Under the pieces are notes generated by a model. That model saw only the letters and a list, made by a program, of their open reading frames with translations, was not told where the DNA came from and searched no databases. A DNA stretch of 64,000 nt from Neorhizobium vignae. GTDB taxonomy: Bacteria; Pseudomonadota; Alphaproteobacteria; Rhizobiales; Rhizobiaceae. The stretch lies in the NCBI RefSeq assembly GCF_000732195.1, contig NZ_JNNU01000010.1:62001-126000 (forward strand). The letters are read 5' to 3'. The translations under genes and the position numbers were made by a program. Shown here piece after piece: positions 5,684 through 36,706 of the stretch (its first letter is position 1; each line of letters starts with the position of its first letter).

Positions 5684-6139
5684 CTATTTGCTGCTTGTCT
5701 GGGCGTCGTCGAGAAGGCCGCTCGAGCGCTTGGCGACCATCTGTTCCAGCGTCATGTTGTCGAGTACCGAGGCGATCGCGTCGCGCACTTCCGTCATCGA
5801 ATGGCGGATCTGACAGTCTTCCGGATGGTCGCAATCGTCGCAGGCCTCGAATGCCGTCTTGCTGGCGCAACGGATCGGCGCCAGCGGACCGTCGAGAATG
5901 CGGACCGCTTGGCCGACATAGATCTGCGAAGCGGGCTTGGACAGCGCATAACCGCCGCCCGGCCCTTTTTTCGAGCGCAGCATGCCGCCCTTGCGCAGCT
6001 CCAGCAGGATCGCGTCGAGGAATTTCTTGGAAATGTTGTTCTGTTGGGCGATGTCGCTGACGAAAGCGGTCTTGCCGGGTTCGAGCTGTGCCAGGTGGAC
6101 AAGCGCCTTAAGCCCGTATTTTCCCTTTTTCGTAAGCAT
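5684..6139 (-). CDS. Rrf2-family transcriptional regulator
   Basis: A 151-residue DNA-binding protein with the Rrf2 winged helix at its start (MLTKKGKYGLKALVHLA, then SDIAQQNNISKKFLDAILLEL as recognition region, and a GPGGGYAL wing). Four cysteines (in RCASKT, EACDDC and EDC) lie where Rrf2 proteins such as IscR/NsrR bind an Fe-S cluster. Spacing differs from textbook IscR, so cluster binding is a possibility only. I start at 6139, since the upstream 27 codons are not family-like. Its position beside two sulfur-scavenging oxidoreductases suggests a CymR-like sulfur/cysteine regulator, but this is inference from context. Confidence 0.85.
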   Translation of the reverse strand: MLTKKGKYGLKALVHLAQLEPGKTAFVSDIAQQNNISKKFLDAILLELRKGGMLRSKKGPGGGYALSKPASQIYVGQAVRILDGPLAPIRCASKTAFEACDDCDHPEDCQIRHSMTEVRDAIASVLDNMTLEQMVAKRSSGLLDDAQTSSK

Positions 6140-26590: not shown

Positions 26591-27253
26591 TCAACGTGCC
26601 GTTGCGCGGGAAAATCTGAGTTCCATGCGTCTTGCAAGTACCGAAAGCGGCCAGCAGAGGACGAAATAGACCGCCGCCACCGTGCCGAACACCATGAACG
26701 GGCTGAACGTTGCATTGTTGATGATCTGGCCCTGGCGGGTGAGCTCGGTAAAACCGATGATCGCCGCAAGCGAAGTGCCCTTGATCAGCTGCACCAGAAA
26801 GCCGACCGTCGGCGCCACTGCGATCTTCGAGGCCTGTGGCAGGACGATGTAGCGCATCCGATTGAAGTAGCGCAGGCCGAGCGCGGTCGCGGCTTCCCGC
26901 TGGCCCGGCGGCACGGCTTCGATGCAGCCGCGCCAGATTTCGCCGAGGAAGGCGCTGGCATGCAGGGTGAGCGCGACGGTTGCGGCAAGCCAGGGATTGA
27001 TGGCAAACCCGAGGATGTTCATGCCGAAGAACACCAGGAAGAGCTGCATGAGCAGTGGGGTTCCCTGGAAGATGCGGATGAAGCCGGTGGCGATCAGCCG
27101 CGGCCATTTTGCATCAGAGACGCGTAGCAGCGCGATCAGCAGGCCGCCGATGCCGCCGCCTGCAAAGGCGATCGCCGAGAGCGCGATGGTCCACTGCGCC
27201 GCAAGCACGATGATCCAGAATTCGTTGATGCCGAAAGGTCTGATCAATGGCAT
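26591..27253 (-). CDS. Polar amino-acid ABC transporter permease (GlnP/HisM type)
   Basis: A 220-residue inner-membrane protein with about five hydrophobic helices. It contains the family loop FIRIFQGTPLLMQLFLVFFG and the ATPase-contact segment REAATALGLRYFNRMRYIVL. It follows the sister permease by nine bases and probably pairs with it as a heterodimer. Confidence 0.92.
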   Translation of the reverse strand: MPLIRPFGINEFWIIVLAAQWTIALSAIAFAGGGIGGLLIALLRVSDAKWPRLIATGFIRIFQGTPLLMQLFLVFFGMNILGFAINPWLAATVALTLHASAFLGEIWRGCIEAVPPGQREAATALGLRYFNRMRYIVLPQASKIAVAPTVGFLVQLIKGTSLAAIIGFTELTRQGQIINNATFSPFMVFGTVAAVYFVLCWPLSVLARRMELRFSRATAR

Positions 27254-27262
27254 GTCAGGCTC

Positions 27263-27967
27263 CTACCGGCTCAGCGGATATTTGAAGGCGGCCTTCTCGA
27301 TTATCGAGAAGATCGTCGAGAAACCGACCGACATGACGAGATACATCACCGTTATGACGATATAGACCTCGAAGCTCGCGAAGGTCTGCGACTGCAGATT
27401 GTTGCCGGCGGCGGCAAGGTCGTCGGCGGAGATCGCCGAGACGACGCTCGAGGTCAGCATCAGGTAGATGAACTGGCTGGTCAGCGACGGATAGACGGTG
27501 CGCAGCGCCGGCTTCATGATGATATAGCGGAAGATCTGCAGCTTCGAGAGGCCGAGCGCGGTGCCGGCCTCGATCTGCCCCTTCTGGATCGACTCGATAC
27601 CGGCGCGGATGATTTCCGTGCCGTAGGCGCCGAAATTGACGACCAGCGCCACGAGCGCCGCACTGTTCGGGGTCAGGAAAATCCCGAGCGACGGCAGGCC
27701 GAAGAAGATGAAGAAGATCTGCACCAGGAACGGCGTGTTGCGAATGATTTCGATATAGGCGTCGATAACCCAGCGCAGCGGCGCTATACCGGACGTCTTG
27801 CCAGCGGCGCAGGCGATCGAGACGATCAGGCCGATGATCATCGCCGCCACCGAAAGCTGGATCGTCAGCCAGGCGCCGAGCAGAAGCTGGTCGAAACCCG
27901 CAAACACGGGCTCGAAATTGAAATTGTACAACTTGGGACCTCCCCAATGATGTTGAAAGAGCGTCAC
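27263..27967 (-). CDS. Polar amino-acid ABC transporter permease
   Basis: A 234-residue inner-membrane protein of the HisQ/GlnP family, with IEIIRNTPFLVQIFFIFFG and the contact loop IEAGTALGLSKLQIFRYIIM. It is the first gene of the operon and starts 21 bases from a perfect 16-bp palindrome, just downstream of the lacI-type regulator gene. Confidence 0.92.
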   Translation of the reverse strand: MTLFQHHWGGPKLYNFNFEPVFAGFDQLLLGAWLTIQLSVAAMIIGLIVSIACAAGKTSGIAPLRWVIDAYIEIIRNTPFLVQIFFIFFGLPSLGIFLTPNSAALVALVVNFGAYGTEIIRAGIESIQKGQIEAGTALGLSKLQIFRYIIMKPALRTVYPSLTSQFIYLMLTSSVVSAISADDLAAAGNNLQSQTFASFEVYIVITVMYLVMSVGFSTIFSIIEKAAFKYPLSR

Positions 27968-28040: not shown

Positions 28041-29078
28041 TCAATATCGAGCCGGACCGGCGATCGGCCCGCAGGACTGGCGAATATGCAGCCGCGTCTC
28101 CTTCACAACCCTGCGAGGCGGAAGCAGCGGATCGCTCAAGCGGTCGAGCAGCAGGCGGGCGGCATTCTCGCCGATCGTCACCGGCGCGGTGGAGACAGAG
28201 GTGAGCCGCGGGCGGATGATGTCGGCTTCCGTCACGTCGTCGAAGCCGATCAGCGAAAAATTCTCACCGACCTTCAGCCCGAGATCGTGAAGACCGGCTG
28301 AAAGGCCAAGCGCGATCACGTCGTTGAAGCAGACAACTGCGGTCGGCTTTTCCCGGTTCTCGAACAGCAGATGTGCCGAACCCGGGATCTGCGCCGTCTG
28401 GTCGGGGACACGGATGATCAGGTCCGGATCAAAGCCGCGGGAGAACATTGCGTCGCGAAAACCTTCGATCCGTTCCAGATAGGCGGAATGAACAGGCCCG
28501 TGTACCGCGAAGGCAATCCGGCGATGGCCGAGCGAGGCGAGATGGCCGACCGCTTCGCGCATGCCGGCGGCATAATCGACGCCGGCATAATCGATATCGT
28601 CGGAAATATGCCGCAGCGCCTGAACCAGCGGCAGGCCCCATTCCGCCATCCGGTCGAGGAATTCCGGTTCGGTGGCGGCCGCCGGGCAGATGATGACGCC
28701 GTCGACGCCGTGCTCGCGCATGCGCTGCATGACCATGTCCTGCCGCTCGGCAAGATCGCCGCTATTGGCGAGGATCACCACCATGCCGGCTGCATCGATC
28801 ACTGATTCGATGCCGGAGAGAAGCTCCGCGAAGAAGGGATTGGTGAGATTGGGCACCACGACGCCGACCGTATGGCTGCGTTCAGCCCTGAGCCGGGCGG
28901 CACCCATATTGTAGACGTAACCGAGTTCGCGCATCGCCTCCTCGACCCGAGCCCGCGTCTCGGTGCCGACCAGCGGGCTCTTGCGGATGACGAGCGAAGC
29001 GGTCGCGCGGGACACATTGGCGCGCGCCGCCACGTCGAGAAGCGTTACACGGTTTTTCTTTTTGTCTTCGAATGGCAT
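28041..29078 (-). CDS. LacI-family transcriptional regulator
   Basis: A 345-residue regulator. The N-terminal helix-turn-helix and hinge (VTLLDVAARANVSRATASLV, then AMRELGYVYNMGAARLR) are followed by a periplasmic-binding-protein-like sensor domain ending in HIRQSCG. I prefer ATG 29078 (MPFEDKKK) to the one three codons upstream. It lies directly upstream of, and in line with, the ABC operon; the 16-bp palindrome in between is its likely site. Confidence 0.93.
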   Translation of the reverse strand: MPFEDKKKNRVTLLDVAARANVSRATASLVIRKSPLVGTETRARVEEAMRELGYVYNMGAARLRAERSHTVGVVVPNLTNPFFAELLSGIESVIDAAGMVVILANSGDLAERQDMVMQRMREHGVDGVIICPAAATEPEFLDRMAEWGLPLVQALRHISDDIDYAGVDYAAGMREAVGHLASLGHRRIAFAVHGPVHSAYLERIEGFRDAMFSRGFDPDLIIRVPDQTAQIPGSAHLLFENREKPTAVVCFNDVIALGLSAGLHDLGLKVGENFSLIGFDDVTEADIIRPRLTSVSTAPVTIGENAARLLLDRLSDPLLPPRRVVKETRLHIRQSCGPIAGPARY

Positions 29079-29129
29079 CAAAATCACTTAGCAGAAGTGT
29101 CGGGAACCCGAACGGATTCCTCCCTATAC

Positions 29130-29176: not shown

Positions 29177-30001
29177 TTACTCCGCGTCTGCAAGCAGGCC
29201 TTCCATTTCCATCAGGAAGGCGAACTCGCCGGCAAGCCCCGGTGAACAGGCAACCACCGGCCCGCCGCGGGAAAGCAGTTCGTCGAGCGGCGGCACTGCG
29301 ATCGTCGCGCCGGCCTCCGAGGCGATCAGCACGCCGGCAAGCATGTCCCAGGAGGACAGGTGCCGTTCGTAATAGAGATCGGACACGCCCTCGGCGACGC
29401 GGATGAGGCCGATCGCGGCGGCCCCCATGCGGCGGTAGTCGATGCCGCGCTCGTAAAGCTTGCGTGAGACGTTGATGTAGTCCTCGAAATCGGTGCGGCG
29501 GGAATGGCCGAGAATGGCAATCGCGTGATTGGGATCGCTGGTCTTTGCCGCTGCGATCGGCTTGCCTTCCTTGAAGGCCCCCTCACCCCGGATCGCGTGG
29601 AAAACCCGGTCCTGGGCGGCATCGTATATCACGCCCACCAGAATCTTGCCGCCGGCAACGAAAGCGATCGAGACTCCCCAGTGGCGAAAGCCGCGGATGA
29701 AATTGGTGGTGCCGTCGATCGGATCGACCACCCAGGTGCCCCGCTCTCCGGAATGCCCCCCACCCTCCTCGCCCATGAAGGAATCGTCGGGGAATTCGCC
29801 GAGCAGCGCTGCACGGATCGCTTCTTCGGCCCGCTTGTCGGCGACGGTGACGAAGTCCTGCAGGCCCTTGTTCTCGACACCGAGCGTTTCGGGAAGCGCC
29901 TCGGCGCGGAAGGCGGCAGCCTGCATGCCGACCCGGCGGGCGAGCTCGATTGCGGTTCTTTCGCGAGACTGTAGTGAAGAGAGATCGAATGCAGATGCCA
30001 T
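29177..30001 (-). CDS. Inositol monophosphatase-family phosphatase
   Basis: A 274-residue Mg-dependent phosphatase. The metal site is complete: E78/E79 in FMGEEGG, D93 and D96 in DPIDGTTNF, and the WDMLAG motif with its Asp. Members dephosphorylate inositol-1-phosphate, sugar phosphates or PAP. Its ATG directly follows the TAA of the GDPD-LacI gene. Behind a transporter and a phosphodiesterase, it would remove phosphate from the phosphomonoester the phosphodiesterase releases, like the phosphatase in the agrocinopine pathway. The true substrate is not known. Confidence 0.88.
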   Translation of the reverse strand: MASAFDLSSLQSRERTAIELARRVGMQAAAFRAEALPETLGVENKGLQDFVTVADKRAEEAIRAALLGEFPDDSFMGEEGGGHSGERGTWVVDPIDGTTNFIRGFRHWGVSIAFVAGGKILVGVIYDAAQDRVFHAIRGEGAFKEGKPIAAAKTSDPNHAIAILGHSRRTDFEDYINVSRKLYERGIDYRRMGAAAIGLIRVAEGVSDLYYERHLSSWDMLAGVLIASEAGATIAVPPLDELLSRGGPVVACSPGLAGEFAFLMEMEGLLADAE

Positions 30002-31741
30002 TTATGCACTTCTTCTTTTGATCAGCGTCACCGGCGTGAATTCCACCCTTGCGACGGCGTCCGGTTCCGACATCCGGCTGGTCAGGAGATCGATCACCTG
30101 CTCCGCCTGTACGTCGCAGGGCTGTACGAATGTGGTGAGGTCATAGGCCGACCAGCTTGCCTGAGGGATGTCGTCATGACCGATGACCTTGACCGAGCCG
30201 TAGCTCCGGCCTGCCCTGGCGAGCCCGTCGAGCACGCCGCAGGCCATATAGTCGTTGACCGAAAACACCCCGTCTATGCCCAGGTCGATCAGCGCCTGCG
30301 CAGCCTCGTGGCCATGGGCGTAGTCGTTGATGGCGACCGGAATCAGAGGTGCGTCGAGCCCGAGCATCTGGCAGCGGCTCTGAAAAGCCTCGGCGCGGCG
30401 GCGCGAGGAATAGGAGACGGCCGTACCGGCGATGACGGCGAGCTTCTTGGCACCCGCCTCGACGAGATGGTCAACGGCGGTGTAACCCGACATCCGGTCA
30501 TCGGAAACGACCCGATCGACAAAGGGAAAATCCTCGCCCTTGTTGACCAGCACGATCGGCACGCCCTCGACCGCGCATTCCTCGAAGATATGCGAGGGCG
30601 GCGCATCCGAGGTGACGATGACCCCGGAGACCGCGTAATGCAGCAGCTGGCCGATGACGGTGGCGCTGTCCGCCTCCTTGGAAGTCGGCAGCAGGATCGG
30701 CCGGTAGTTGCGGGCAATCAGCGCGCGGGCCAGATTTTCGAGCTGCTGGGTGCGGAACGGGTTGTCGAGGCCGGCGGCCACCAGGCCGACGAAATCGGAC
30801 CGCTTGTTGGTGAGGCTGCGGGCGAGATAGTTGACCCGGTAACCGAGTTCCTTGGCCGCCTGGTAGACCTTCTGGCGGGTTTTTTCCGAAACGCTCGCAT
30901 CCGGGGTGAAGGCGCGCGACACGGCGGCGCGGGAGACACCGGCCGCACGGGCGACATCGAAGGAGGTGACGCGCCGCTGCTCGCGGGACATGCCGCTTAT
31001 TTCCCTCGGCCGCATCAGCTCCGGCAGGTCGGTGCAGATTCCAAGCACCGGCAGGACCATGATATCCTTCAGTACGTCCGGCCGTTCCTCGTGCCAGAGG
31101 ACGATCTCCTTGCCCTCGGCAAAAGCCCTGTCGATCAGTTCCTCGGTGACGAATTCCTGCGGCGTGTCGCTCGCCTTTTCCCAGCAGAGATGCAGGATGT
31201 CGGCGCCGGCCGCCTCGCCTGCCGCATGCGGATCGTGGCCGACGCGGATGAGCACCGAGAGCGGATAGTCGCAGCCCATCTCGCGCAGTTCGCGCACCTG
31301 GGCGGTATCGAAGGAACCGAGGCAGGCGAAGCGCTGGTCCATGTCCTTCAGGTGTCGCCAGCAGAGCGCGCCAGTGCCCGGCCGCTTCAGCTCAACGTAA
31401 AGGCCGCAGCCAGTCTCGCGGCCGAGGGCCGCGACTTCCGCAAAGCTCGGCACATCCGGCACCGCCGCGCGCAGCTCCGCAAACGTCATCTGCGAAATGT
31501 GCAGGTCCTTCTGGAAGACCCGTTGCAGATGGTCGTCATGGGAGACAACGACCACGCCGTCCGAGGTCATCTGGGTGTCGAGTTCCCACATTTCGGCGCC
31601 GAGTTCGGCAGCGCGGCGGAAGGCCGTCAGCGTGTTTTCCCGTTCATGGCCGCTTGCGCCGCGGTGGCCGATGCAAAAGGGCAGCCGGCCCTTCCCTTCC
31701 GGCCAGCCGAATTTGCCGAAAAAGGCGGAAAAGTCGTGCAT
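30002..31741 (-). CDS. Glycerophosphodiester phosphodiesterase fused to a LacI-family regulator
   Basis: One uninterrupted 579-codon frame. Residues 1-250 are a cytosolic GDPD-family phosphodiesterase with H26-R-G, E35-N-T, E53/D55, H68 in VVSHDD and E117/K119 in YVELKR, so the active site is complete. Residues 251-579 are a complete LacI regulator: helix-turn-helix VTSFDVARAAGVSRAAVSRAF, hinge KELGYRVNYLARSL, then a sugar-binding sensor domain. A Met at residue 251 (ATG 30991) has GAGGG 11 bases upstream, so a separate regulator may also be made from the same message. The gene lies 11 bases after the ATPase and abuts the phosphatase. The fusion is unusual and could be a lost stop codon. Confidence 0.85.
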   Translation of the reverse strand: MHDFSAFFGKFGWPEGKGRLPFCIGHRGASGHERENTLTAFRRAAELGAEMWELDTQMTSDGVVVVSHDDHLQRVFQKDLHISQMTFAELRAAVPDVPSFAEVAALGRETGCGLYVELKRPGTGALCWRHLKDMDQRFACLGSFDTAQVRELREMGCDYPLSVLIRVGHDPHAAGEAAGADILHLCWEKASDTPQEFVTEELIDRAFAEGKEIVLWHEERPDVLKDIMVLPVLGICTDLPELMRPREISGMSREQRRVTSFDVARAAGVSRAAVSRAFTPDASVSEKTRQKVYQAAKELGYRVNYLARSLTNKRSDFVGLVAAGLDNPFRTQQLENLARALIARNYRPILLPTSKEADSATVIGQLLHYAVSGVIVTSDAPPSHIFEECAVEGVPIVLVNKGEDFPFVDRVVSDDRMSGYTAVDHLVEAGAKKLAVIAGTAVSYSSRRRAEAFQSRCQMLGLDAPLIPVAINDYAHGHEAAQALIDLGIDGVFSVNDYMACGVLDGLARAGRSYGSVKVIGHDDIPQASWSAYDLTTFVQPCDVQAEQVIDLLTSRMSEPDAVARVEFTPVTLIKRRSA

Positions 31742-31752
31742 CGAGGCCTCCG

Positions 31753-32808
31753 TCACAATCTCTGTCCGTCTGCGGCAAATACGAAGGTCGAGGCACTGTC
31801 GAGGTTCCAGCGCACGCTGTCGCCCGGCTTCACGTCGTCGCGCACCGGCTGGATCGAGCGCAGCACGGAACCGTCCGGCAACACGACGTCGTAGAGGTTT
31901 TCGCGCCCTTGCGTTTCCGCAAACACCACCCGTCCCTCGACGGGCACACCGCCCGCAGTTCCGAAATGTTCGGGACGGACGCCGAGGCTGAGCGCGGTTC
32001 CGTCCGCAATGCCCGACAGCGCCGCAAGCGGCAGGCGCAAGCCGTTTTCGCCAAGCACGAAGGCGCCCTGCTGCGCCCGGCCCTTGAGGAAGGAGATTGG
32101 CGGATTGCCGAGGAAACTGGCGACGAAGGATGTCCGAGGATCCTTGTACATATCCGACGGAGTGGCAATCTGGACGATCTCGCCCGATTTCATGATGGCA
32201 ATGCGGTCGCACATCGACATTGCTTCCACCTGGTCATGGGTGACGAGGATGGCGGTGATGCCCGTCTCCTTCTGCAGCCGGCGGATTTCCGAGCGCATGT
32301 CGAGGCGGAGTTTTGCGTCCAGATTGGCGAGCGGCTCGTCGAGGAGAAGCACGTCCGGGCGGCGGATCAGGGCACGGGCGAGCGCCACGCGCTGCTGCTG
32401 GCCGCCGGAAAGCTGCGCCGGCCGGCGACCCAGGAGATCGCCGATATGGACGAGTGCCGCGATATCCGCGACCTGCTTCTTGATATCGGCGGCGGCGACC
32501 CGCTTCACCATCAGCGGAAAGCCGATATTCTCCTCCACCGTCATATGCGGATAAAGCGCATAGGACTGGAAGACGACACCGACATTGCGTTCCTGGCTCG
32601 GCAGATGGGTGACGTCCCGGTCGCCGAACAGGATGCGGCCCGAGGTCGGTCGGTGGATGCCGCAGACGGCAAACAGCGTGGTCGACTTGCCGCAGCCGGA
32701 AGGCCCGAGCAGTGCCAGCATTTCGCCGGAACCCACTTCGAGATCCATGTCTTCGATAATTCTGGTGGAGCCGAAACTCTTGGAAAACTTGTCGAGCAGT
32801 ATACGCAT
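31753..32808 (-). CDS. Carbohydrate ABC transporter ATPase (UgpC/MalK type)
   Basis: A 351-residue ATPase with Walker A GPSGCGKSTT, Q-loop FQSYALYPHMTV, signature [15 protein letters not shown], Walker B LLLDEPLANLD and H-loop LVTHDQVEAM. The C-terminal OB/TOBE domain includes GVRPEHF. ATG 32808 overlaps the upstream permease stop by one base. UgpC itself imports glycerol-3-phosphate and its diesters, which agrees with the GDPD gene next to it, but the sequence alone does not separate UgpC from other MalK-like ATPases. Confidence 0.92.
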   Translation of the reverse strand: MRILLDKFSKSFGSTRIIEDMDLEVGSGEMLALLGPSGCGKSTTLFAVCGIHRPTSGRILFGDRDVTHLPSQERNVGVVFQSYALYPHMTVEENIGFPLMVKRVAAADIKKQVADIAALVHIGDLLGRRPAQLSGGQQQRVALARALIRRPDVLLLDEPLANLDAKLRLDMRSEIRRLQKETGITAILVTHDQVEAMSMCDRIAIMKSGEIVQIATPSDMYKDPRTSFVASFLGNPPISFLKGRAQQGAFVLGENGLRLPLAALSGIADGTALSLGVRPEHFGTAGGVPVEGRVVFAETQGRENLYDVVLPDGSVLRSIQPVRDDVKPGDSVRWNLDSASTFVFAADGQRL

Positions 32809-33665
32809 CAGCCCTTGGTGCCTCCGCCATAGATGTTCATGAGATGCTTCTGGAAGAAGACGTAGAGGATCAGCACCGGCACGACGTAGAAGACGCCCAC
32901 GGCCTTGAAGGTGCCGAAATCGAAATTGTTGTCGTCGATGATCAGGCTCGCCAGATAGACCGATAGCACCTGCACCTTCGCGCCTGGCGCCAGCACCTGC
33001 GGCATGATGAACTCGCTCCAGCCGGTGAGGAAGGAAAACAGGCCAAGTGCCATCACCGCCGGCTTGATCTGCGGCAGCACCAGCCGGCGCCAGACCGTGA
33101 AGCGCGACGCGCCGTCGACCGTCCCGGCCATCTCGATCTCCCAGGGCACGGTGTCGTAGAACCCCTTCATCAGCCAGATGCCGAGCGGAAGTTCGACCGC
33201 AGCCTTTACCAGGATCACCCCGATCAGCGAATTGTAGAGGCCGATCCACTGCAGCACGATGAAGATGGCGATGATCAGCGTCACCGACGGGAAGGCGTGC
33301 AGCACCATGACACCGGCAAGGAAAAAGCCGCGTGCCGGCACGTTGAGGCGCGACAGAACATAACCCGCCATCGACGAGACCGTAAGGATGACGCCGGTGA
33401 TGCAGCTTGCGAAAATGAAGGTGTTGAGCGTGACGAGCCAGATATTCGGCTTGCCGGTCTTGGTCTCCCAGAGGAAACTCCAGTGGCGCAGCGTGAACTC
33501 GTTGGGGATCAGCGAGCCGACTTCCGTGTCGCTGATCGTGTCGACGAAGAGATAGGCATACATCACCAGCAGCGGCAGGCTGAAAAGGCCCAGCAGCAGG
33601 ATCACCGGGAGGCTCGAGAAATTCGCCGAGGTCGTGTTTGACGAGATTTGCGGTTTTTCGGCCAT
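32808..33665 (-). CDS. Carbohydrate ABC transporter permease (MalG/UgpE type)
   Basis: A 285-residue inner-membrane protein with six predicted helices and the CUT1 contact loop (PWEIEMAGTVDGASRFTVWR). It starts three bases after the upstream permease and ends overlapping the ATPase start. It forms the channel with the MalF-like partner. Confidence 0.92.
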   Translation of the reverse strand: MAEKPQISSNTTSANFSSLPVILLLGLFSLPLLVMYAYLFVDTISDTEVGSLIPNEFTLRHWSFLWETKTGKPNIWLVTLNTFIFASCITGVILTVSSMAGYVLSRLNVPARGFFLAGVMVLHAFPSVTLIIAIFIVLQWIGLYNSLIGVILVKAAVELPLGIWLMKGFYDTVPWEIEMAGTVDGASRFTVWRRLVLPQIKPAVMALGLFSFLTGWSEFIMPQVLAPGAKVQVLSVYLASLIIDDNNFDFGTFKAVGVFYVVPVLILYVFFQKHLMNIYGGGTKG

Positions 33666-33667
33666 GC

Positions 33668-34969
33668 TCAATCCTCGATCAGCGGCTTGGAGATCAGCGT
33701 GTCGTAACGGAAGATGCGCAGGTAGATGAGCGACAGCACGATGCCGACAACCACCAGCACCAGCGCCATGGCCGCGCCCAGCCCGTATTCCAGATTGCCG
33801 GTGTAGTTGTTGAGCGCGGTGTGGTAGGCGGCGAGCGACCATACTTCGGTCGCCCGCCCCGGCCCGCCGCGGGTCGAGAGGAGGATTTCGTTAAAGGAGG
33901 CGAGCAGCGACAGGGTCTGGTAGCAGGTGACGAACAGGATCGGCCAGCGAAGCTGCGGCAGGATGACGTGGCGGACCTGCTGCCAACGGCTGGCGCCATC
34001 GACCTCGCTTGCATGGAACTGCGTCTGCGGGATCGCCTTGATGGCGGAAGAGAAGACCAGCATGCCCATCGAAGCGCCGATGAAGCCGTTGATCAGGATC
34101 ACGAAGAACCAGGCGTTATAGGCACTGTCGAGCAGGTAGTTTTTTACCGGATAACCGAACTGGCCCATGAACATCGAGATGAAGCCGCTATCCCAGGTCA
34201 GCCATTTCCACATCAGCACGTAGATGACCACCGGCGTGATGCGCGGCAGCAGCCAGATGGCGCGGAAGATGGATGCGGTCGAAGCCGGCATGTAGTGGGT
34301 CGTGATGGCGAGGAAGAGCGCGTAGCTGACGTTGAAGAGGAGCAGCGTCACCGAGACGTAGAAGGCGGTGTTGAGGAAGATCTGCGCCATGTCCGGCGAG
34401 TTGCCGATGATTTTGAAATTCTCCGTCGTCCATACCCAGCCGGTATAGGTGGCCGCGGCGACAGTCTCCTGTTCGGCCGGGGTCAGCGTAAAGCCGAGCT
34501 TGTTCAGGCTTGCCATCAGTCCGTCGCGGTTCTCGAACCGGGTATTCAGAACCGAGCGGTTGAAGAGGTCGGAAATCTGCTTGACCTCGCGGGTCGAGGG
34601 CCGGTCCTTCAGCGCCTTGATCATGCGTTCGGCCTCTCGACGCGAGGGAAAGACCTCCCCCATGTGGCTGGTACGCAGTTCGATGCTGAAACCTGCCTTG
34701 ATCTTCAGGGCTTCAAGGGCTGCAAGTCCCTCCTCGTCGATGACGAAACGCGGCTCGGCAATGCCGCCCGCAAGGTCCGGCATGTCTGCCTTCAGGCGAT
34801 TGATGGCGCCTTGCGTGACCTGCCAGGCGCCGCCGGAAATGCCCGTTGCGGTGCTCATATTGGTCATGGCGAAGATGGCGGTCAGGACGACCGGCATCAG
34901 GAAGAACAGGAAGATCATGATCGCCGCGGGTGCGATCATCACCAGTCCGAGCGTTCGTGACGTTCGCAT
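33668..34969 (-). CDS. Carbohydrate ABC transporter permease (MalF type, large periplasmic insert)
   Basis: A 433-residue membrane protein. The first helix (residues about 8-35) is followed by a soluble stretch of about 150 residues before the second helix. This insert resembles the MalF periplasmic domain and is larger than in UgpA-type permeases. The contact loop FHASEVDGASRWQQVRHVIL is present near the C-terminus. The first gene after the binding protein, it is separated from it by a strong hairpin. Confidence 0.9.
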   Translation of the reverse strand: MRTSRTLGLVMIAPAAIMIFLFFLMPVVLTAIFAMTNMSTATGISGGAWQVTQGAINRLKADMPDLAGGIAEPRFVIDEEGLAALEALKIKAGFSIELRTSHMGEVFPSRREAERMIKALKDRPSTREVKQISDLFNRSVLNTRFENRDGLMASLNKLGFTLTPAEQETVAAATYTGWVWTTENFKIIGNSPDMAQIFLNTAFYVSVTLLLFNVSYALFLAITTHYMPASTASIFRAIWLLPRITPVVIYVLMWKWLTWDSGFISMFMGQFGYPVKNYLLDSAYNAWFFVILINGFIGASMGMLVFSSAIKAIPQTQFHASEVDGASRWQQVRHVILPQLRWPILFVTCYQTLSLLASFNEILLSTRGGPGRATEVWSLAAYHTALNNYTGNLEYGLGAAMALVLVVVGIVLSLIYLRIFRYDTLISKPLIED

Positions 34970-35102: not shown

Positions 35103-36449
35103 TCAGCGGATGATGATCGCTGCGCCGAGCGTCGACTTCAGCTCGGTTTCGGCATCGTTGACCGCGGCATCGACCGTCTTGGCACCCGTCCAGGATGCTT
35201 CGAGGTTCTTCCACATGATCGTCCAGTATTTGCCGAAATCGGCATTGTTCGGCATGGCGTTGGCATGCGGCAGCAGGCGCTCGGTGGCCTCGGAAGCCCA
35301 GCGGTCGGCGGAGTAGAGATCGACCTTGGTTTCCGACGGCGAGATGCCGAGATGGGCCGACTTGATCGCATGCAGCGCGTTGATGCGCGGCTCGGAAGCG
35401 ATCTTGATCAGGTCGGCAGCGATCCGGGTCGCTTCGTCGGTATGGCCGGCCATCAGCAGGTAAGCGAGCGGATGGGTCAGCGTGTTGGACTTGCCGCCTT
35501 CGCCGGCCGGGATCAGCGTGAACTGAACATTGTTGAAGAAGTCCTTCAGGCCTTCCTGGTTGACCAGGCGCGCATAGTGCCAGGTGCCGCCGTGCCAGAT
35601 GCCCGCCTTGCCGGTGGCAACTTCTTTCCACCACTGGTCGCCCGGCATGCCGATGTGGTTTTTCTTGGTGACGCCGGCCTTCACGAGATCGGCGAAATAC
35701 TGGTAGGTGCGCTTCATCGCAGCCTTGTCGAAAACGAGCTTGCCTTCCTCTTCCATCACGCCGCCGAAGGACGTGTAGAACTGCCAGTAGTCCGGGCCGT
35801 TGCTGTTGCGGGGATAAAAGCCGTAGCCCGCCTGGACGAGGCCCTTGTCCTGCATCTTCTTGGCGTCTTCGAGGACGTTCTTCAGCGTATATTCGCCCTT
35901 TTCGACCTTGGCCGGCAGAGCCTCGATATCGGCATCCGAATAGCCGATTTCCTTCATGTAGGGCTTCCAGAAGAAGAAGGGGCGGGATTCGGCGTCCTGC
36001 GGGATGCCGTAGACGGCGCCGTTGAAGGAGGTGATCTCCATCAGGTTCGGATAGATGTCGCTGATCGGCCACGAGTCGAGGTCGATGAACTTCTCGACCG
36101 GAACGATGAGGCCGGCCTGCGCCCAGGGGCCGATGTCTTCATGGCCGGTGGCGACGATGTTCGGAGCCTTCTTGGCTTCGGCGGCCAGCGTCAGCGCCTG
36201 CTTGAAATCTTCCCAGCCGGAATAGGGCGTCTTCTGGACGATGATGTTGAGCTGTTCGCCGCGGATGGCGGCTTCGCGCTCGAGAATATCGGCAGCGATG
36301 TCGAACGCATCGGTGCGATAGTTGTCGTTCGGCCCGGAACCGCCGGACCAGACGGAGATGGTGACATCCTTGGCCGACGCGAAGACGGCGGTGGAGGCGA
36401 AGAGAATGGCCGCAAGCGTGGCGGATTTGAGTATCGGAAGAACAGTCAT
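35103..36449 (-). CDS. Extracellular carbohydrate-type solute-binding protein (family 1)
   Basis: A 448-residue secreted protein. The signal peptide MTVLPILKSATLAAILFAST ends near VFASA-KD. The mature part (VTISVWSGGSGPND, then DAESRPFFFWKPYMKEIGYS and MPGDQWWKEVATGKAGIWHG) matches MalE/UgpB-like receptors. GGGGAG six bases before ATG fixes the start. It is the first gene of the transporter-GDPD-phosphatase operon; with those enzymes, the ligand may be a sugar or polyol phosphodiester. Confidence 0.9.
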   Translation of the reverse strand: MTVLPILKSATLAAILFASTAVFASAKDVTISVWSGGSGPNDNYRTDAFDIAADILEREAAIRGEQLNIIVQKTPYSGWEDFKQALTLAAEAKKAPNIVATGHEDIGPWAQAGLIVPVEKFIDLDSWPISDIYPNLMEITSFNGAVYGIPQDAESRPFFFWKPYMKEIGYSDADIEALPAKVEKGEYTLKNVLEDAKKMQDKGLVQAGYGFYPRNSNGPDYWQFYTSFGGVMEEEGKLVFDKAAMKRTYQYFADLVKAGVTKKNHIGMPGDQWWKEVATGKAGIWHGGTWHYARLVNQEGLKDFFNNVQFTLIPAGEGGKSNTLTHPLAYLLMAGHTDEATRIAADLIKIASEPRINALHAIKSAHLGISPSETKVDLYSADRWASEATERLLPHANAMPNNADFGKYWTIMWKNLEASWTGAKTVDAAVNDAETELKSTLGAAIIIR

Positions 36450-36581
36450 GGTTTACTCCCCGAAGAGCGAAATGGCTTCTTCCGAACCCTGAGAGACCCT
36501 ATCGGCCCAAGGCTCCGGAAGCGCTGAAGATCATCAACAGGAAGCGGTCTAGAGGCGCTCCATAACACCCAGATGACAAAA

Positions 36582-36595
36582 TGTACGCGTGTGCA
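36582..36595 (-). promoter_or_regulatory. Candidate LacI-type operator upstream of the carbohydrate ABC operon
   Basis: The imperfect palindrome TGTACGCGTGTGCA (10 of 14 positions symmetric, central CpG) is flanked by AAAA and AAATTT. It lies 133 bases upstream of the binding-protein start. It is a plausible site for the LacI moiety of the fusion protein encoded in the same operon. Confidence 0.35.
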
Positions 36596-36706
36596 AAATT
36601 TATTCAGGGGCTAATTTGCAAGGCCGGCCCTCACACGAGCCGGAGCCCCGCAAGACGAACAGGCCAACGAACGGGCCGCTCGACGACCCTCGGAATTCGG
36701 GTTCGA

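Follow-up and report, generated by a model that had tools for sequence, protein, structure and literature searches.

A GDPD phosphodiesterase and a LacI-type repressor joined in one conserved reading frame in Neorhizobium

In a 64,000-nucleotide stretch of the Neorhizobium vignae genome (the window), a single open frame on the minus strand joined a glycerophosphodiester-type phosphodiesterase (GDPD) to a complete LacI-family repressor. This fusion is real, conserved and of single origin, and is not the accident of one genome. Taking the gene together with its surroundings, we propose, with a probability of about 0.6, that one bifunctional protein controls its own phosphodiester-scavenging Pho-regulon operon and that the product of its enzyme half serves as inducer.

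The fused gene and its domains

The gene occupied positions 30002–31741, running from an ATG at 31741 to a stop codon at 30002–30004, and encoded 579 residues. A preliminary description of this DNA had placed GDPD and LacI in one frame at these coordinates, which proved correct, without giving the strand. Its further statement that the frame continues from GDPD into a complete LacI protein without a stop was borne out by the open copies throughout the genus described below and by Pfam, which recognized GDPD (PF03009; 92 bits against a cut-off of 23.6) at residues 26–241 (31019–31666, minus), the LacI helix-turn-helix (PF00356; 50.7 bits against 27) at residues 262–304 (30830–30958, minus), and Peripla_BP_3 (PF13377; 83.5 bits against 26.5) at residues 423–578. 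Pfam and a fold search together delimited a LacI effector-binding domain at about residues 317–578 (30008–30793, minus). The C-terminal half of the fusion thus contained both the helix-turn-helix and the periplasmic-binding-like domain that define the LacI family.

The GDPD active site, described earlier as complete, was indeed so: HRG, ENT, E53, D55, H68, E117 and K119 were invariant in 15/15 aligned fused proteins, and the motif HRG..ENT..E.D..HD..ELK was present in 27/27 fused copies (26 distinct ones, L057 being identical to L030). The pattern requiring ELK matched 11 of 30 unfused GDPDs, and the four misses inspected carried EIK. Both halves were under purifying selection, with NG86 dN/dS values of 0.07–0.16 for GDPD and 0.02–0.12 for LacI in nine pairs, while the linker between them (residues 245–258; 30968–31009, minus) was relaxed in most pairs compared. 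Mean identity in this variable linker was 0.55 versus 0.83 and 0.85 for the two domain halves. Its length took five values (25, 26, 28, 30 and 31 aa) among the 27 fused copies, all of which had been collected as one-frame genes, so that these in-frame lengths were partly given by construction. No break was found within the linker in any fused-type copy examined, including two copies frameshifted elsewhere.

An AlphaFold model built from 33 sequences reached a mean pLDDT of 87 and superseded an earlier model from a shallow alignment (mean pLDDT 66.8). Confidence fell below 50 over at least three residues at two places only, residues 247–256 between the domains and residues 305–314, the place of the LacI hinge, a segment that becomes ordered on DNA. 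In the fold search, residues 257–579 matched the complete repressor RbsR (9ny7_B; Z 31.6, rmsd 7.4, 312 residues aligned), and RbsR was also the best solved match for the LacI effector pocket. LacI-type chains alone appeared among the matches listed; because the LacI domain filled this list, the GDPD fold was assigned from sequence matches.

Distribution and origin of the fusion

Within the genus, 25 of 57 genomes contained the gene at E ≤ 1e-100, in all 25 at full length, in one frame and with no stop; the other 32 gave no match at this threshold. The open frame in every genus copy ruled out a reading error or a pseudogene. It also disposed of the possibility, raised in the preliminary description, that close relatives all carry a stop between the domains and this sequence alone lacks it. 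Among 33 loci taken from genome contigs, 24 were fused (577–589 aa counted from the matched point), eight were split, GDPD and LacI being separate neighbouring genes that did not share a frame, and one (L055) was a LacI paralogue without GDPD. The Ensifer loci L031 and L032 were likewise fused. At the family level, 15 of 394 genomes matched at E ≤ 1e-80, five with a fusion, nine with the two parts in different frames and one (G088) with the locus cut by contig ends; at the order level, 19 of 397 matched at E ≤ 1e-75, and the fusion occurred in three genus members only. Plasmid records gave 129 matches, 123 of them at 60–80% identity; among the 24 matches listed in this identity range, 23 were annotated as two genes and one was unannotated.

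Independent fusions elsewhere were not seen among the 2/385 class and 24/398 phylum genomes with a match, searched mostly through the three best candidates per genome and inspected where a match was listed with a GDPD part. As the query was the GDPD–LacI fusion family, fusions of other GDPD or LacI subfamilies would escape this search. One candidate for a second fusion, in genome G840, was rejected on account of an in-frame TAA between a double-GDPD ORF and LacI; this locus (L131 6048–7535 and 5004–6035, minus) carried two GDPD domains in one ORF, the second assigned by eye, followed by the TAA and LacI, a different kind of joining within a similar type of operon.

Of six Neorhizobium plasmid records, H4 and H5 were frameshifted in the LacI half, where their length differed by single bases within or close to short runs, reflecting either sequencing error or real variation; records H1–H3 were assessed from a one-piece match alone. 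The plasmid copies frameshifted within the LacI half lay at L112 3001–4742 and L113 3001–4742. In N. petrolearium OS53 (L114 8001–9740), the sole intact and annotated fused record examined, the fused frame was intact, and the gene table, which omits pseudogenes, gave LacI starting from the ATG of a PDLM motif and no GDPD CDS.

A tree was built from 47 rows of concatenated GDPD and LacI sequences, L057 being excluded as identical to L030. In it, the 26 fused rows formed one clade with support of 100/100, and the fused or split trait required one change. The split relatives closest to this clade included Rhizobium types, in which GDPD and LacI share ~17 nt. In Chelativorans, Devosia and Martelella the GDPD stop is overlapped or directly adjoined by the ATG of LacI, and in relatives farther away LacI is mostly preceded by two GDPD genes. 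The single fused clade, together with split genes that lie close or overlap, suggests that GDPD and LacI, as closely spaced genes, were probably fused in a single event. The earlier idea that the GDPD stop had been lost was therefore essentially right in that separate genes became joined, but incomplete, since the split genes sit in different frames and a frame change was required as well.

The genes around the fusion had a partly different history. In seven fused loci (Pseudorhizobium and R. wenxiniae groups), the binding protein and permeases grouped with those of Devosia and Martelella (100 SH-aLRT), whereas in the remaining 18 fused loci they grouped with the Rhizobium type (96), and the ATPase tree agreed with this division (96). 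In the tree of the inositol-monophosphatase-family phosphatase (IMPase), the same seven loci fell with the other fused and the Rhizobium-type loci, apart from Devosia and Martelella (100), although the fused loci formed one clade with support of just 72. These discordant placements point to an exchange of the transporter beside the fused gene in the seven loci, probably with a breakpoint after the ATPase gene and ahead of the fusion. A Devosia/Martelella-type transporter was found next to the fused gene in L033, L035–L038, L044 and L046, upstream of position 6001.

The operon, its predicted operator and PHO box

The fusion was the fifth of six genes on the minus strand of the window. The first encoded a periplasmic solute-binding protein (35103–36449), followed by a MalF-type permease (33668–34969) identified by profile match, a MalG-type permease (32808–33668, start approximate) and, again by profile match, a UgpC/MalK-type ABC ATPase (31753–32808); the IMPase gene (29177–30001) began with its ATG immediately after the stop of the fusion. 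This order, with GDPD and LacI either fused or split, was found in 32/32 loci. Identification of the operon as the Ugp glycerol-3-phosphate system was rejected, as its ATPase and permeases all scored under the Ugp model cut-offs (UgpC 351.9 versus 432, UgpA 44.2 versus 335, UgpE 46.8 versus 297). Solved relatives of the binding protein were distant and mostly of the sugar-binding type (best E 2.8e-10). Downstream of the operon, at 28041–29087 and 26591–27967, the window also contained a second LacI gene and ABC permease genes; within the 6 kb examined, 12 of 32 related loci had that LacI on the same strand. Another paralogous LacI of the same genome lay near HAD-like, PhoD-like and sugar-type ABC genes, named by eye (L109; G000:C18:18000–34000), possibly making up another phosphate-ester cluster.

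Upstream of the first gene we found a predicted LacI-type operator, TTGCACACGCGTACAT (36581–36596, minus), centred 139 nt before that gene, and 1 nt after it a predicted PHO box, TTGTCATCTGGGTGTTAT (36562–36579, minus), with 3/14 mismatches to the consensus CTGTCAT-N4-CTGTCAT (taken from passages of PMC3131613 and PMC4415409). Judged from sequence only, a TTGYACRCGYGTRCAW-like palindrome with central CG preceded the first gene in 33/33 loci (the window and L023–L054; L055 was excluded as a paralogue), differing from the perfect form at 1–4 of 16 positions, a level equalled in 41 of 3300 shuffles. The best PHO box began 0–2 nt behind an operator copy in all 33 loci, with at most 4/14 mismatches, compared with 62 of 660 shuffles reaching this level. 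The same arrangement of operator and PHO box was present in L114 and L115. As the counts were made in the very loci that had supplied the motifs, the shuffles gauge motif strength and are not an independent prediction. The stronger argument is the presence of the predicted operator and PHO box in the split loci of Chelativorans, Devosia and Martelella, whose upstream regions by eye otherwise have little in common.

The exact operator pattern occurred once in the window's genome, and a copy with one mismatch lay between a paralogous LacI gene and a gene for an AfuA-like binding protein; at up to two mismatches, genome-wide matches equalled those of a control pattern (14+12 versus 14+12). At L110 4688–6909 (G000:C3), the paralogous LacI gene was divergent from the AfuA-like gene, which we take to be of the hexose-phosphate type, with two operator-like palindromes between them. 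The PHO pattern had four matches genome-wide versus none for its control; one adjoined a DUF47-like gene, a type associated with phosphate transport, and two had no obvious phosphate gene adjacent, as judged by eye.

Proposed mechanism, alternatives and known systems

In the mechanism that we propose, a LacI-family repressor would carry, at its N-terminus and on a flexible linker, a cytoplasmic glycerophosphodiester-type phosphodiesterase. The binding protein and ABC transporter would import a phosphodiester as a phosphate source, and the GDPD half would split off an alcohol and leave a phosphomonoester, from which the IMPase-like enzyme would release phosphate, thereby ending the signal. The LacI half would bind the predicted palindrome beside the predicted PHO box and repress its own operon; with operator and PHO box abutting, transcription would require both phosphate starvation, through PhoB, and relief from the repressor. 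Induction of LacI repressors by uncleaved substrate is also possible; here the most likely inducer is the phosphomonoester released by the GDPD half, by analogy with the acc operon of the Agrobacterium Ti plasmid, where the product of the phosphodiesterase AccF binds the repressor AccR. In passages of PMC4526662, AccR binds L-arabinose-2-phosphate, the product of AccF, with no affinity for agrocinopine A detected, and an accF mutant is unresponsive to agrocinopine A. As a consequence of the fusion, each repressor would carry the enzyme making its inducer, basal expression included.

The preliminary description had seen in this architecture a direct link between sensor and enzyme. Of that proposal, the conserved architecture itself stood, in the form of one clade, purifying selection on both halves and a conserved predicted operator. 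Only tentatively do we go further and suggest that GDPD, held at or near the operator, makes the ligand by which its own molecule is freed from DNA; derepression, gated by PhoB, would then be set by the turnover of the enzyme and not by uptake of the ligand. A single protein in which fusion was a neutral accident of overlapping genes, leaving enzyme and repressor uncoupled, is a possibility to be taken seriously, if short of even odds: in several lineages the unfused genes overlap or abut one another, so that little change was needed to join them, and a variable linker fits such an origin. One frame has nevertheless been kept in 25/25 genus copies and in the two Ensifer loci, and fusion and IMPase remained together beside two transporter types, which speaks against an accident and is no proof of coupling. 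That the GDPD half is a mere ligand-sensing extension, as its position adjoining the DNA-binding domain might suggest, we regard as very improbable, given the invariance of all named catalytic residues and the low dN/dS; the phosphatase gene that comes after the fusion also argues against an inactive GDPD half.

Production of a separate repressor has to be weighed as well, and these readings are compatible with one another and with parts of the mechanism above. The ATG at 30991 (residue 251; 30989–30991, minus), earlier suggested as the start of such a repressor, was present with GAGGG upstream, and its predicted anti-SD pairing was −7.0 kcal/mol in the window, −5.0 in L042 and −3.6 in L024. 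These three were the only fused copies of 27 to have this ATG, also found in the frameshifted plasmid copy L112, so that a separate LacI, which may arise from it in the window strain, would be no conserved product; L045 had a different internal ATG with predicted pairing of −5.3 kcal/mol. An ATG in a PELM/PDLM motif (residue 243; 31013–31015, minus) occurred in 27/27 fused copies, and it is there that the public annotation of the fused relative begins LacI. Its mean pairing was at background level (−2.6 versus −3.3 kcal/mol), and the motif was shared with Rhizobium-type split GDPD genes, in which LacI lies in another frame, suggesting that it was probably retained for the enzyme. We therefore consider it unlikely that, within the continuous frame, initiation at 30991 or 31015 yields a separate LacI and leaves the long product mainly as an enzyme.

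If the bifunctional reading is true, inducer synthesis and sensing would occur in the same molecule, as a natural case, within a route, apparently not yet characterised, by which plant-associated bacteria scavenge phosphodiesters. The unfused relatives still found in related rhizobia kept as laboratory strains would allow direct comparison of what joining enzyme and repressor does to induction. Among the open-access papers listed in searches for the fusion, its operon or enzyme–regulators, we saw no description of it, and a word search of the main text of PMC11406972 found neither pRL90 genes nor a phosphodiesterase. Closest in gene order, with orthologous halves, is the pair RL_RS27160/RL_RS27155 on pRL9 of R. 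johnstonii 3841, which differs in that the two genes are separate, overlapping by 17 nt in different frames. R. ruizarguesonis NZLR24 (L115), also of the Rhizobium type, has the predicted operator and PHO box found in fused loci. The acc operon (AccF, AccG, AccR) similarly combines transporter, phosphodiesterase, phosphatase and repressor, a likeness of logic alone. AccR belongs to a different repressor family from LacI, the acc transporter is of another type, and enzyme and repressor are separate proteins. To our knowledge, ugpBAECQ of E. coli has no dedicated LacI repressor. In passages of PMC4415409, that operon resembles the present one in its glycerophosphodiester importer, its GDPD (UgpQ) and its PHO boxes. 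It differs in the transporter, the window's ATPase and permeases scoring under the Ugp cut-offs. Enzyme and DNA-binding regulator also share a single polypeptide in PutA, BirA and NadR, whose enzyme and DNA-binding families differ from those of GDPD–LacI; in comparison with these proteins, GDPD–LacI retains the whole of a LacI repressor, effector domain included.
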